Below, piece by piece: positions 4,482-21,139 of a DNA stretch of 29,711 nt. The notes beneath the pieces are model-generated. The model was not told the DNA's origin and did not search any database. It saw only the letters and a list, made by a program, of their open reading frames with translations. The position numbers and the translations under genes were made by a program. Position 1 is the first letter of the stretch. The number at the start of each line of letters is the position of its first letter. Origin of the DNA: a virus; the IMG/VR virus record IMGVR_UViG_3300023184_000395, positions 1-29,711 of that record; one strand, written 5' to 3'.

Positions 4482-4528
4482 GAACGCCTACCCATATCAG
4501 TACCCCCTGTTCTATGGGTAAGGCGTTC
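4482..4528 (+). terminator. Strong intergenic hairpin, probable terminator
   Basis: GAACGCC-TACCCATA (4482-4496) pairs with TATGGGTA-GGCGTTC (4513-4528) with a single bulged A (4521), giving 15 base pairs around a 16-base loop. It lies 17 bases after the 4464 stop. No U-tract follows, so it could be a U-tract-less terminator, an RNA processing site or a regulatory stem. Confidence 0.6.
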
Positions 4529-4555
4529 AAGGTTCGCTTAAAGGCGGATCTGAAT

Positions 4556-4571
4556 TGTGACCGGTTTCACA
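4556..4571. promoter_or_regulatory. Crp/GlxR-type operator
   Basis: TGTGA-CCGGTT-TCACA, a perfect 5-bp inverted repeat with 6-bp spacer, identical in both half-sites to the Crp-family consensus (and to actinobacterial GlxR). It is centred at 4563.5, about 52 bp upstream of the predicted start of transcription at 4616 and 9 bp before the -35 box, a reasonable activator position. Confidence 0.6.
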
Positions 4572-4580
4572 GCGATTTAC

Positions 4581-4609
4581 TTGCAATTTACGTTCGTTTG
4601 CAACAAGAT
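4581..4609 (+). promoter_or_regulatory. Leaderless promoter for the 4616 gene
   Basis: TTGCAA (4581-4586), 17-bp spacer, CAAGAT (4604-4609), 6 bases, ATG ACA at 4616. It is the only member of this promoter set with a Crp-type site immediately upstream. Confidence 0.7.
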
Positions 4610-4615
4610 GTATCT

Positions 4616-4867
4616 ATGACAACGAACACGGGAGACAAAATGTCCTATAAGCACAATGTTCAGCGAAATCTGATGGCAGGTACGTTACGAAAAGGAACTT
4701 TGATTTGGATGGATGAGCATAGTGTTTATCATGTAGCAGGGGAAAACGAACCGTACTATTTTGAGGTTTGCGGTGACTTGGTTGGTTTTAGTGTTCATTT
4801 AGGTGGTCAATGGCAAAAATTGTGCCCACTTGAATTAGTGACTTCGTTCATAGAAGCACACAAATGA
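4616..4867 (+). CDS. Hypothetical protein, possibly SH3-like
   Basis: An 83-residue protein with beta-strand-like segments: M-A-G-T-L-R-K-G-T-L-I-W-M-D near residue 20, then H-V-A-G-E-N-E-P-Y-Y and a W-Q-K-L-C-P-L-E-L ending. The pattern suggests a small barrel, but I do not recognise the family. ATG 4616 fits the leaderless promoter; ATG 4640, with GGGAG five bases upstream, is a credible alternative start eight codons later. The stop overlaps an ATG at 4864 that I do not use. Confidence 0.65.
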   Translation: MTTNTGDKMSYKHNVQRNLMAGTLRKGTLIWMDEHSVYHVAGENEPYYFEVCGDLVGFSVHLGGQWQKLCPLELVTSFIEAHK

Positions 4868-10701: not shown

Positions 10702-12147
10702 GTGCCTGACGCAAACATCAAGAAGTTATCTGATCGTGCTCTAGTTTTAGCCCATGATGCCTTGCATACAAAGGAATTGTCCGATGGGGTGGTTTTAGCG
10801 CATCACCTGATAGCCGATGAAATCCGGAAACGGAAAATCGAGCATGTGCCGTCAACCGACGTATTGCACGACAAAGTCGTTTCTATGTCAAAAGTCACCA
10901 TGAAGATTTCGGCGCTTGATAAGCAGATGTCTGAAACTGAGGTGAAAGCCGTAGCAGAGATGGCTATGCGTAACGGTGCAAAGTTTGCTGATGTTCATGA
11001 ATTGCTTACTGCTCAAGGATGGTCGCTCGGTGCTACGCCGTCCATGGAGAATCCTGAAGATATGTCAGGTGAACCTGACGATGAGAATGAATCAGAATTA
11101 CCGTTCTTGACGCCTCGTCAGAATGAAATGTATTCAGACTTGTGTGAACTGGTAGATGAGATGGGTCAATTTGTTCAGGACGCTTCGCCTGATGGTGCGC
11201 ATTATATGATGCCCGCTGAAAATCCGTTTCGTAGCAAAGGATTGAAATGCTCAAATTGTGTCTTTTACGAAGGTGGTGGCAGATGTCACGTCGTTCAAGG
11301 CAGCGTTGAAGCGGAAGGTCTTTGCAAACTTTGGATCATTGAAGGGTTGAAGGTTAAAAAAGAAAATGAAGTTGTTGCAGAAGATTTTTCCGATTGGGTA
11401 GAGAAAGCCGAAACGTACACTCCGCCAAAAGGTGTTCAAGCCGAAGGAAAACGTGCTTTAGAATGGATCAGCGAAGGTCATGCTGGTAATGGTTTCACCT
11501 CTGTCGGTCGAACTCGTGCAAGTCAGTTAGCAAATGGTGATGCTTTAACGCTTCGTACTGTTACGCGCATGAAAAGTTATTTAGGTCGTCATCAAGCCGA
11601 TAAACAGGCTGAAGGATTTCATGTAGGTGAAAAAGGGTATCCGTCGCCGGGTCGTGTTGCTTGGGCTGCTTGGGGTGGAGATGCTGCTTGGGATTGGACA
11701 CGCTCAATCTTAGACAGAGTTGATAAATCGTTGATCGTTAAAAGTGTTGCTGAGAAGCGTTTTACGCTCGGTCCGTGGTATGTGCCTAACACTTTGGATG
11801 CCCATAACGAATGGACTGATCCCGAACAGTTACAGGATGCTCTTTGGAATTACGTAAAGAAGGCTGATCGTACTATCAGATTGCAACATCAGCCGAACAC
11901 GAAAGCCGGTGAATGGGTTGAGGCTATGACGATGCCTTTTGAGACTGTTGTTCCGGTGTTGGATCCGTCGACTAATTCGTTGAACAAACAGAAGTTTCCT
12001 GCCGGAACGGTTTTTCTCGGTGTTCAATGGGAACCGTGGGCTTGGGAAATGGTGAAGAAGGGTCAGATTCGCGGCTACAGCATTGGTGGGCTGGCTGCAC
12101 GTAAGAAAGAAAAACTTAGCGGCATTTACGTCGATTTAATGCAGTAA
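10702..12147 (+). CDS. XkdF-like prohead protease, multidomain
   Basis: A 481-residue protein. The C-terminal part (about 354-466) matches the XkdF-like/Peptidase S78-type family: L-G-P-W-Y-V-P-N-T-L-D-A-H, R-L-Q-H-Q, then G-T-V-F-L-G-V-Q-W and G-Q-I-R-G-Y-S-I-G-G. Upstream are a HiPIP-like four-cysteine segment (C183, C186, C195, C208) and a conserved helical domain (about 240-338, ending P-S-P-G-R-V-A-W-A-A-W-G-G-D) that I know from other phage protease and MuF-region proteins. It should mature the procapsid by cleaving scaffold and capsid termini. The GTG start is chosen from the promoter spacing. I cannot assign the catalytic residues with confidence. Confidence 0.8.
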   Translation: MPDANIKKLSDRALVLAHDALHTKELSDGVVLAHHLIADEIRKRKIEHVPSTDVLHDKVVSMSKVTMKISALDKQMSETEVKAVAEMAMRNGAKFADVHELLTAQGWSLGATPSMENPEDMSGEPDDENESELPFLTPRQNEMYSDLCELVDEMGQFVQDASPDGAHYMMPAENPFRSKGLKCSNCVFYEGGGRCHVVQGSVEAEGLCKLWIIEGLKVKKENEVVAEDFSDWVEKAETYTPPKGVQAEGKRALEWISEGHAGNGFTSVGRTRASQLANGDALTLRTVTRMKSYLGRHQADKQAEGFHVGEKGYPSPGRVAWAAWGGDAAWDWTRSILDRVDKSLIVKSVAEKRFTLGPWYVPNTLDAHNEWTDPEQLQDALWNYVKKADRTIRLQHQPNTKAGEWVEAMTMPFETVVPVLDPSTNSLNKQKFPAGTVFLGVQWEPWAWEMVKKGQIRGYSIGGLAARKKEKLSGIYVDLMQ

Positions 12148-15568: not shown

Positions 15569-15610
15569 CTTTCGGTCAAGTGACCTTAAGTGTCCATAAT
15601 CGGAGGGAAA

Positions 15611-15844
15611 ATGGCTTACAAAGTTCAGAAACGATTGCAGGGTGAACACGGCTTTCACGAAATTGGTGAAATCGTCGATGCAGAAAACTGGAAGAACGTT
15701 AATTCGTTACTTGGTTTGCGTTATCTAGTAGTTGTTCATGGCGATGCAGGGAACGACACTACGGTGAACAAGACTGTTGCGAAGAAGTCGTCTAATATCA
15801 AAACCACATCTGAAACGAAAGTGTTAACCGGTGAGCATATCTAA
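15611..15844 (+). CDS. Small head-associated protein
   Basis: A 77-residue protein with a predicted small barrel (Y-K-V-Q-K-R-L, H-E-I-G-E-I-V, L-G-L-R-Y-L-V-V) and a Lys/Thr-rich tail. CGGAGGG lies 4 bases before ATG 15611. The opening resembles the protein at 19396 (short strand, G-x-x-V, then a helix and strand), suggesting two small relatives in head and tail modules; this is a pattern comparison by eye, not an alignment. Confidence 0.6.
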   Translation: MAYKVQKRLQGEHGFHEIGEIVDAENWKNVNSLLGLRYLVVVHGDAGNDTTVNKTVAKKSSNIKTTSETKVLTGEHI

Positions 15845-18705: not shown

Positions 18706-19233
18706 ATGCGGCGATTCATTTGCGCAGGATTATTGTCTGTGATCATTTTAGGTACTGGACATGTGTCGAGCGCAGAAGCGCCGGAAGTCAAGCGACCCAC
18801 TACATCATTTGTAGAGCAGTATGACAGAGTATACGTTGCGCCTGCTATCGCTGTAACCCATGATGTTAAGGCTTACTCGTCTGTTCCGTCAGATAAAACG
18901 AAACGTTGTCCTGAGTTCGAACCGTTGTTCAGAGAATACGGTTTAGAGCCGGTTGAAGTGTTTTCGTATATTGCTTGGCGTGAGTCAGGTTGTAATCCAA
19001 AAGCGGTTAATGCTCGGTTTGACAAAGCCGGCAAAGTGATTTGGACGCTCAATAAAAACGGTTCTATTGATCGAGGTTTGTTGCAGGTTAATTCTTGCTG
19101 GAAAACCGTTGTGCGACAAACGTGTGCAACTGATTTGAATGGTTTGTTTGATTTACCATGCCAGTTGAAAGTTGCTAAACGTATCTTGACTGAAACGCAA
19201 TCCGGTTTAGGCAACTGGAACATTTACCCTTAA
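18706..19233 (+). CDS. Secreted lysozyme-like / SLT-type protein
   Basis: A 175-residue protein with a clear signal peptide (basic M-R-R, hydrophobic 5-17, A-E-A near 23-25). Residues about 67-173 resemble a lytic transglycosylase/lysozyme-like fold: F-S-Y-I-A-W-R-E-S-G-C-N-P with a candidate catalytic Glu in R-E-S, D-R-G-L-L-Q-V-N, and a closing G-L-G-N-W. Six cysteines in the exported part suit disulfides. It should cleave or bind peptidoglycan outside the membrane. Being exported by the host and encoded amid virion genes is unusual; it may be lysis-related, or block superinfection. Confidence 0.75.
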   Translation: MRRFICAGLLSVIILGTGHVSSAEAPEVKRPTTSFVEQYDRVYVAPAIAVTHDVKAYSSVPSDKTKRCPEFEPLFREYGLEPVEVFSYIAWRESGCNPKAVNARFDKAGKVIWTLNKNGSIDRGLLQVNSCWKTVVRQTCATDLNGLFDLPCQLKVAKRILTETQSGLGNWNIYP

Positions 19234-19300
19234 CTAGCATTTGCGCGTAACTACGCTCAAGTAGAGCCCGCTCCGTTAAGCGTGTAATATCCAAAGTGAA

Positions 19301-19377
19301 CGTGCCTTAGTGGTCTAGGAGCCGCGCCCGATACGTACCCCAATGTGGGTCTGAGCGTGTCGCTTAGTCGCGGCATG
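19301..19377 (+). ncRNA. Structured RNA element (three-way junction)
   Basis: In the 162-base gap before the 19396 gene. P1: GCCGCG (19321-19326) with CGCGGC (19369-19374). P2: ACCC (19337-19340) with GGGT (19347-19350). P3: CTGAGCG (19351-19357) with CGCTTAG (19361-19367), loop TGT. P2 and P3 abut. An alternative outer stem is CGTGCC (19301-19306) with GGCATG (19372-19377), exclusive with P1. The ribosome site AGGAG (19387-19391) lies 13 bases beyond P1. A -10-like TAATAT (19285-19290) precedes it. It may be a leader switch, terminator or processing signal; it lacks tRNA features. Confidence 0.45.
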
Positions 19378-19395
19378 CCCAAGATCAGGAGTGTT

Positions 19396-19602
19396 ATGGC
19401 GAAATATAAGGTGCTCGTAGAATTGGACTATCCGCCGGATCGTCATGCCTTGGTTGGCGACGTTGTATCTGATTTGCCTGCAAAGTCGATCAAGTGGCTT
19501 GCCGAGCAAAACCTTATTGAACTCGTTGGAAAAGCCGATGAAATCGTTGAAGAAGAACCGATCGAGTCCGCACCTGCCGACTCTAAGAAAGTTGGTAAAT
19601 AG
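19396..19602 (+). CDS. Small tail-module protein
   Basis: A 68-residue protein: strand K-Y-K-V-L-V-E-L, a G-D-V-V turn, helix S-I-K-W-L-A-E-Q, strand L-I-E-L-V and a Glu/Pro-rich tail. It has AGGAG four bases before ATG 19396, at the edge of the structured element at 19301-19377. Similar small proteins often precede tail tube genes. The role is unknown; possibly a tail completion factor. Confidence 0.6.
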   Translation: MAKYKVLVELDYPPDRHALVGDVVSDLPAKSIKWLAEQNLIELVGKADEIVEEEPIESAPADSKKVGK

Positions 19603-19604
19603 TC

Positions 19605-20330
19605 ATGGCGTTTCTACACGGTAAATCTGCTCAGATTCTGCACAACGAATTTGATTTGTCGGGTTACTTTAACGAGATTTCGACTAAGCGTGATGTAGAA
19701 ACTGCAGAGACAACCGCTTTTGGTTCATCTGCAAAATCGTACATTGTTGGCTTAAAGGACGGCACGATCAGTTTGAGCGGCATGTTCGATGGTTCAGCGA
19801 ATGCTATTGATGCCGAAATGACAGACGTTCTTGGTGACAATACTGGTGGTGTTATTACGATTTCTTTGACTGGTGTTACGACTATTGGAACACGAGTAAC
19901 AACTGCCACAGGCAAAATGACTTCGTACGAAGTAAGTTCTCCTGTTGGCGATGTCGTTTCGGCTAATGCCGAATTTCAAGCGGATGCCGGTATTACAGAA
20001 GCAATTTCTCTGCATGCTTTGAGTGCAGATACAGCAACTACGAGCAATGCGTCCGTCGATAACGCTGTTAGTTCTGCCAATGGTGGTGCAGCCAATTTGC
20101 ATGTAACTGCAAACACCATGAATGCCGGCGACGTGTTTAAGGTTCAGCACTCTGCTGATAACTCGACATGGGCTGATCTCGTAACTTTTACGACAGTTCC
20201 AACTGTCACAAAAACTGCTGAAAGAAAAACTGTAGCGGCTGGCACAACTGTCAATCGTTATTTGCGTTCTACGTTGACAGCGTCGGGCACAGGCAGTATC
20301 ACATACCACATAAACTTCGCAAGAAACTAG
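19605..20330 (+). CDS. Major tail tube protein with extra C-terminal domain
   Basis: A 241-residue protein. The N-terminal ~130 residues (M-A-F-L-H-G-K-S-A, V-E-T-A-E-T-T-A-F-G, S-Y-I-V-G-L-K-D-G-T-I-S, T-S-Y-E-V-S-S-P-V-G-D-V-V) are a tail tube domain and are closely paralogous to the next gene. Residues about 135-241 form an additional beta-sandwich ending R-Y-L-R-S-T-L and I-N-F-A-R-N, likely exposed on the tail surface. Tube subunits form the hexameric tail tube. The gene follows 19602 by 2 bases. Confidence 0.78.
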   Translation: MAFLHGKSAQILHNEFDLSGYFNEISTKRDVETAETTAFGSSAKSYIVGLKDGTISLSGMFDGSANAIDAEMTDVLGDNTGGVITISLTGVTTIGTRVTTATGKMTSYEVSSPVGDVVSANAEFQADAGITEAISLHALSADTATTSNASVDNAVSSANGGAANLHVTANTMNAGDVFKVQHSADNSTWADLVTFTTVPTVTKTAERKTVAAGTTVNRYLRSTLTASGTGSITYHINFARN

Positions 20331-20750: not shown

Positions 20751-20788
20751 TAGAGTCAAGTTCCCAAACTAAAACAAGGAGAAATACC

Positions 20789-21139
20789 GTGTCCCTACGT
20801 GACCGCATTATTGCAGCAAACGACTCAGCCGAAGAAATCGTTGAAATCCCTGAATGGGCTTGCAGCGTGAAAGTCAGAAGCATGTCGGGAGCGGCTCGTG
20901 CAGTACTTGTCCAAGATGCGTCAGATAACAACGGCAAAATGAACTTTGGTCGTGTGTTGCCTGAAATCATTATTGGATGTGTATTCGATCCAACTACCGG
21001 TGAGCAAGTTTTCGAAGCCAAAGATACAGAAGTCTTGATGTCAAAATCAGGTGCTGTCCTTGACAGAATTGTTGCCATTGCTATGCGTCTCTCCGGATTC
21101 GCAGAAGGTGCGGTCGACGCAGCGGGAAAAGATTCTTAG
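20789..21139 (+). CDS. Tail assembly chaperone, short form (gpG-like)
   Basis: A 116-residue protein starting at GTG 20789, with AAGGAG eight bases upstream. Residues 5-40 are helical then S-V-K-V-R-S-M-S-G-A-A-R-A, typical of tail assembly chaperones placed between tube and tape measure genes. It ends with G-K-D-S and TAG at 21137. The slippery heptamer GGGAAAA at 21124-21130 in the 0-frame phase G-GGA-AAA allows a -1 shift to make a longer product, as in lambda G/GT. The chaperone coats the tape measure and recruits tube subunits. Confidence 0.82.
   Translation: MSLRDRIIAANDSAEEIVEIPEWACSVKVRSMSGAARAVLVQDASDNNGKMNFGRVLPEIIIGCVFDPTTGEQVFEAKDTEVLMSKSGAVLDRIVAIAMRLSGFAEGAVDAAGKDS

Follow-up and report, generated by a model that had tools for sequence, protein, structure and literature searches.

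The non-coding gap at 19234-19395 of the window (the whole stretch of DNA analysed, a 29.7-kb virus record that is possibly a fragment) lies ahead of the tail genes and contains two mini-hairpins, A and B. Their form, CGU-nnC-C..GU-Gnn-C, is kept in 27 diverged lineages while the stem bases covary, and comparison with relatives places this leader element far beyond chance. The hairpin also recurs at other late genes. We give close to an even chance to its being an operator through which a trans-acting RNA-binding protein would control the translation of these genes.

On its 5′ side the gap adjoins a transglycosylase-like ORF with an SLT domain (18706-19233). This ORF is SLT/lysozyme-like, has an apparent signal peptide and sits between the head-tail connector genes and the tail operon; it has no PHROG match, and a homologue is absent from the relatives’ loci that were read. 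On the 3′ side, the first gene of the tail operon starts at the ATG at 19396 with AGGAG ahead of it, and its MA(K/T)YKV start is common to the orthologues. The orthologous start codons rule out the gap as coding DNA, in agreement with the initial annotation, which had seen no coding capacity there. Two other genes of the window were annotated in passing. For ORF 10702-12147, the C-terminal part has matches to two families, one of phage RNA ligases and one of head maturation proteases, and Arthrobacter phages Laroye and Kovu have an RNA ligase at a similar place. ORF 559-951 is Staphylococcal-nuclease-like (PF00565, E 1e-12). The features of the leader and the other copies of the hairpin in the window are listed in Table 1.

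Table 1. Features of the tail-operon leader, the first tail genes and further hairpin copies in the window
Feature	Position	Strand	Remarks
-10-like box TAATAT	19285..19290	+	10 nt 5′ of hairpin A; putative promoter, from TANNNT statistics over sites
Mini-hairpin A CGU-[GCC]-UUAGU-[GGU]-C	19301..19315	+	Stem 19304-19306/19312-19314; conserved form, covarying stem
P1 stem, 5′ strand GCCGCG	19321..19326	+	Encloses hairpin B; pair probability 0.95
Inner stem, 5′ strand CGAUACG	19329..19335	+	Pair probability 0.96
Mini-hairpin B CGU-[ACCC]-CAAUGU-[GGGU]	19334..19350	+	P2 of the initial annotation; stem 19337-19340/19347-19350
Inner stem, 3′ strand CGUGUCG	19356..19362	+	Predicted pairing
P1 stem, 3′ strand CGCGGC	19369..19374	+	Predicted pairing
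Alternative leader-tail hairpin	19351..19388	+	19351-19363 with 19370-19378 and 19385-19388; excludes P1; abuts AGGAG
Shine-Dalgarno (SD) AGGAG	19387..19391	+	Sequence
First tail-operon gene, 68 aa, phrog_7924	19396..19602	+	PHROG match
Major tail protein, phrog_9522	19605..20330	+	PHROG match
Mini-hairpin CGU-[GUC]-CCUACGU-[GAC]-C	20788..20804	+	Over GUG start codon 20789-20791 of the tail assembly chaperone gene
Mini-hairpin AGU-[GAC]-CUUAAGU-[GUC]-C	15579..15595	+	Between two head-region cistrons, after the capsid genes

We collected relatives by their major tail protein: it gave 8 close relatives, a first profile retrieved 12 and a deeper profile 80, all of them IMG/VR viral contigs. The same protein led to one Acidimicrobiales assembly contig and to 16 phage records, 14 of which are Arthrobacter phages; the hosts of the cultured relatives are Arthrobacter and Microbacterium, with one Microcystis. 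In most contigs the pattern occurs twice upstream of the small ORF, with a spacing of about 25-35 nt. Each copy consists of CGU, a stem of 3-4 bp, a loop that runs from C/U to GU, the stem partner and C/U. The stem letters seen were GUC/GAC, GUC/GAU, ACC/GGU, GCC/GGC, GCC/GGU, GAC/GUC, GCG/CGC, UCC/GGA and ACCC/GGGU. Hairpins A and B of one genome have different stem bases and the same flanks and loop end, and the loop length varies by 1-3 nt, so that the register to the start codon moves and the hairpin stays. Lineages were split by sequence similarity and not by a tree, and their counts are not counts of independent events.

The initial annotation had inferred cis-regulation of the tail genes and had looked to the recurrence of the motif upstream of tail genes elsewhere. 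When IMG/VR was scanned with the four-fixed-arm tandem pattern alone, 63 contigs were found, and all 63 have a small ORF and/or a tail protein within 1 kb downstream. The tandem pair was not found in the tail leaders of the Arthrobacter phages. As far as computation goes, cis-regulation of the tail genes holds up, a conserved, covarying leader lying 5′ of them in all contigs found by motif; the element is not limited to the tail operon and is also seen at other late genes. As to a host origin, a covariance model had no match in 297 genomes from the phylum of the one bacterial assembly that carries a relative, a weak result from a search without a positive control.

We assessed the pairing in two ways, since the hairpin counts and the rows of a 16-lineage alignment were chosen by a rule that demands complementarity and further tests were run without that rule. 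In the alignment, with rows preselected for complementarity, 100% of the cells pair and five of the six pairs change on both sides. Its covariation score was reached by 0 of 500 shuffles and was lost when the partner was slid. The covariance model that had been suggested as a check, built from the 16 lineages with the window left out, placed its top window match at 19301-19353 (E = 4.5e-4; the next match had E = 1.6), and 3.4 Mb of shuffled sequence contained 0 tandem pairs. Without the complementarity rule, the candidates in the leader zone had three, two, one and zero Watson-Crick pairs in 74, 13, 16 and 15 cases, respectively. The pattern [CA]GTGNCCN{1,4}GTGNC, which likewise demands no complementarity, has a complementary N:N′ at 118 of 139 sites in the phage group versus 10 of 31 in background DNA; the pairs among the 118 are T:A (71), A:T (34), C:G (12) and G:C (1). 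For the GTGNCC..GTGNC pattern, complementary N pairs were counted at 42 of 45 sites in 20 phage contigs.

The covariation of its base pairs allows the element to be ascribed to a structure and not to a DNA sequence. A double-stranded DNA element, that is, an operator or promoter part made of short GTGNCC repeats whose pairing is incidental, would account for the nearness to -10 boxes and for arms that read as direct repeats. We consider it very unlikely, given the complementary free middle base at the 118 sites, the stem differences within genomes, the variable spacing and the copies inside operons away from promoters. A promoter-only DNA motif was rejected on the middle-base complementarity together with the promoter-less copies. 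No Rfam 15 family reached its gathering threshold in the window, a search of the gap up to E = 5 was empty, 12 relatives likewise gave no match, and ARAGORN reported 0 tRNA or tmRNA genes. As far as computation goes, the new phage RNA that the initial annotation had offered among its readings holds up: the element is conserved, covarying and without an Rfam match.

The initial annotation had drawn this RNA as a GC-rich three-way junction. Every stem that it named is present: P1 at 19321-19326/19369-19374 (GCCGCG/CGCGGC), P2 at 19337-19340/19347-19350 (ACCC/GGGU), P3 at 19351-19357/19361-19367 (7 bp, loop UGU) and a stem competing with P1 at 19301-19306/19372-19377. The folding energy by itself is weak support for the element (-35.3 kcal/mol, z -1.8, with 10 of 200 shuffles equally good). 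In the window ensemble, the preferred fold has a continuous stem, 19329-19335/19356-19362 (0.96), that connects P1 (0.95) to hairpin P2 (0.77), and the P3 arm is a minor alternative with a pair probability of 0.004. The junction was rejected on this account, one elongated stem capped by P2 being preferred, and the conserved parts are the two mini-hairpins and the stem that encloses the second. Hairpin A, at the very start of the annotated interval, had been overlooked and is among the best-conserved parts; it is missing from the predicted ensemble of the window sequence taken alone. The observation is thus partly confirmed: it is real, and its unit differs from the one drawn. The flanks of B pair better within their own lineage than across lineages (-13.05 vs -11.26 kcal/mol, p = 0.005; versus shuffles, p = 0.0015), and the helix enclosing B shows changes such as CUCGG/CCGAG, CAUGG/CCGUG and CCCAG/CUGGG.

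Among the whole leaders listed, most show no unusual stability, a point against the operator reading. The stretch from B to the start codon is more stable than shuffles (27 lineages, p = 1e-4) and often reuses the P1 3′ strand, which suggested a switch acting on the SD. P1 and the leader-tail hairpin share a strand and are mutually exclusive, as in a small-molecule riboswitch or an RNA thermometer that would set P1 against an SD-sequestering hairpin, and in the model P1 frees the SD in L002, L003, L008, L091 and L117. Over the 27 lineages, however, SD pairing did not exceed the shuffled control (p = 0.26), and the freeing of the SD by P1 formation was non-significant (p = 0.18); the effect is absent from the window, and single-hairpin sites have no switch region. 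A general SD-sequestering switch, real-looking in some lineages, was rejected because it is not significant over the 27, and we regard a riboswitch or thermometer as very unlikely.

Further copies of the hairpin occur at other genes. At the tail assembly chaperone, 90 of 103 loci have a hairpin close to the start, in two forms. The first lies over the GUG start codon as GTGTCC-nnn-CGTGACC and encodes VSLRD or VSIRD; the second consists of separate hairpins between the preceding stop codon and the SD. In the VSLRD/VSIRD copies the Ser, Arg and Asp codons are constant and the middle codon varies, and the conservation of the chaperone-start copies may be partly coding (VSLRD). Coding as their whole explanation was rejected, as the hairpin found at this place in other lineages is separate and non-coding. 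A single copy at the chaperone start is also present in Arthrobacter phages Laroye, Kovu and Ottawa. More copies were found before a head-region gene (the 15579-15595 copy of the window, and L410), within the first codons of a gene that is ParB-like, and ahead of two further ORFs, a long one whose N-terminus has a hydrophobic segment and a hydrophobic one of 76 aa. The latter lies directly 3′ of the hairpin (L399 14604-14831, L402 5064-5291); its sole PHROG match is a family labelled nuclease, and its N-terminus looks membrane-spanning. The head-region copy of the window is just 3′ of a stop codon (15566) and about 16 nt 5′ of the ATG at 15611. The small ORFs 19396-19602 and 15611-15844, both directly after hairpins, are alike by eye (MA.YKV...G.(I/V)V.....(S/N)......L) and are possibly paralogues, judging from their sequences; the former matches phrog_7924 and the latter has no Pfam or PHROG match.

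The position of the hairpin relative to promoters differs among these sites. With chaperone starts excluded, TANNNT precedes the hairpin by 5-17 nt at 32 of 39 distinct sites (mean of the shuffles 9.6, maximum 17), and thus the hairpin would usually begin at or shortly after the +1 of a predicted promoter. The window has no good -35 for its -10-like box. In the tail leaders L231, L251, L214, L216, L233 and L252, GATGCG is conserved about 10 nt 5′ of the -10 box with no clear -35, and this hexamer is perhaps a late-promoter element. At the 15579 site the TA box, which shares letters with the stop codon that ends the preceding gene, is probably not a promoter. Chaperone sites are mostly 10-52 nt past the preceding stop codon and have almost no -10 box: TANNNT is absent from the 16 nt upstream in all ten separate-hairpin sites and occurs farther up in two of them, at 17 and 20 nt.

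Two explanations draw on this arrangement. An mRNA processing or stability element, which would mark or protect late transcripts at 5′ ends that arise from a promoter or from cleavage between cistrons, accords with two observations: at most promoter-type sites a -10 box precedes hairpin A, which starts near +1, and other sites lie between cistrons. We regard it as unlikely: a protective 5′ stem needs no conserved loop or flank letters, the stems are very weak and the copies over the GUG start codon fit it poorly. Less likely again is an antitermination element (nut-, put- or RfaH/LoaP-like) whose target would be RNA polymerase near the beginning of long late operons; a tandem pair of stem-loops near +1, just past the promoter of a long tail operon, are what it would lead one to expect, but further copies lie within the operon, about 1.2 kb downstream, promoter-less and over a start codon. 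The RNase site proposed initially stays a candidate.

Across all sites, the hairpin and the nearness to a translation start are shared, and promoter, spacing and downstream gene differ. A bound protein that tunes the initiation of late genes is the simplest reading, and because the stems are weak, a partner molecule would be needed. Under the operator reading, the gap would encode the 5′ leader of the tail operon, and its working parts would be the two hairpin copies CGU-nnC-C-N1..4-GU-Gnn-C, the second capping the long stem, with the same hairpin serving several late genes at their ribosome-binding regions. The hairpin would be the operator of a trans-acting RNA-binding protein, most likely a phage product, which would read the conserved flanking CGU and the loop GU presented by the short stem and would set the translation initiation of virion and other late genes jointly. 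The analysis shows the element itself with its pairing, recurrence and positions; its action as RNA, the binding of a protein and control at the step of translation are what we infer. The start codon is inside the hairpin at the chaperone genes. In the tail leaders the SD is not generally hidden, and about 40 nt or more separate the end of the hairpins from the start codon, which puts them beyond a simple ribosome-blocking position. The stems, only 3-4 bp and weak, count against an operator. An Hfq-like match of the window ORF 4514-4867 (17.2 bits versus a cut-off of 27) is no evidence for the binder.

More tentatively, a dedicated phage RNA-binding protein might run a late-gene RNA regulon: by recognising this one mini-hairpin at the tail operon, at the tail chaperone, in the capsid region and at further late genes, it would coordinate virion-protein synthesis. 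If true, this regulon would span a large, mostly uncultured phage group whose cultured relatives infect mainly Actinobacteria. The element links several virion genes and offers a compact RNA operator candidate and a route to a possible late-gene regulator, also in Arthrobacter phages Laroye, Kovu and Ottawa. A literature search found no description of such an element, and a 2017 Arthrobacter phage survey makes no mention of one under the terms searched. The element is probably an uncatalogued shared control handle for virus-particle proteins.

We compared the element to known systems. The HK022 put RNA and lambda nut (boxB) sites are small stem-loops located close to where a long phage operon begins, and put has a tandem pair of them. 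The leader hairpins resemble them in both respects, and differ in that the element is also found inside the operon and over start codons. The guanidine-II (mini-ykkC) riboswitch has two tandem short hairpins 5′ of the SD with ACGR loops. Tandem short hairpins upstream of the SD are common to both, whereas the loops here are C/U-n..-GU, Rfam gives no match and the target genes are unrelated. Phage translational operators include the MS2 coat/replicase hairpin and the T4 gp32 and RegA operators. The present element shares with this class a conserved paired hairpin at or near the ribosome-binding site or start codon. The likeness (PMC3014915, PMC535899) lies in a compact RNA structure or site on or close to the ribosome site and in one regulator that possibly serves several genes; unlike them, the candidate operator has stems of 3-4 bp and stands in two tandem copies in the tail leader.

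Lists of gene-start motifs in actinobacteriophages date back to 2011 and offer no mechanism; among published elements, those named next come nearest to the present one. Cluster K mycobacteriophages have SAS (5′-GGGATAGGAGCCC, 13-bp) at the ribosome-binding site and ESAS, which are 17-bp imperfect inverted repeats (PMC3203893), and Microbacterium phages of clusters EC, EF, EG and EI have motifs at gene starts whose function is unexplained (PMC7302621). Like these motifs of actinobacteriophage genomes, which lie just 5′ of start codons and mostly in gene orientation (PMC3203893, PMC7302621), the element is short, conserved and repeated within one genome; its copies, too, recur ahead of start codons and follow the gene orientation. 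Its consensus, CGTnnCC..GTGnnC, is not the SAS sequence. The published motifs are near-fixed DNA repeats over or beside the ribosome-binding site, whereas here the stems compensate, only the flanks and the loop end are fixed, and the sites are mainly at late virion genes.
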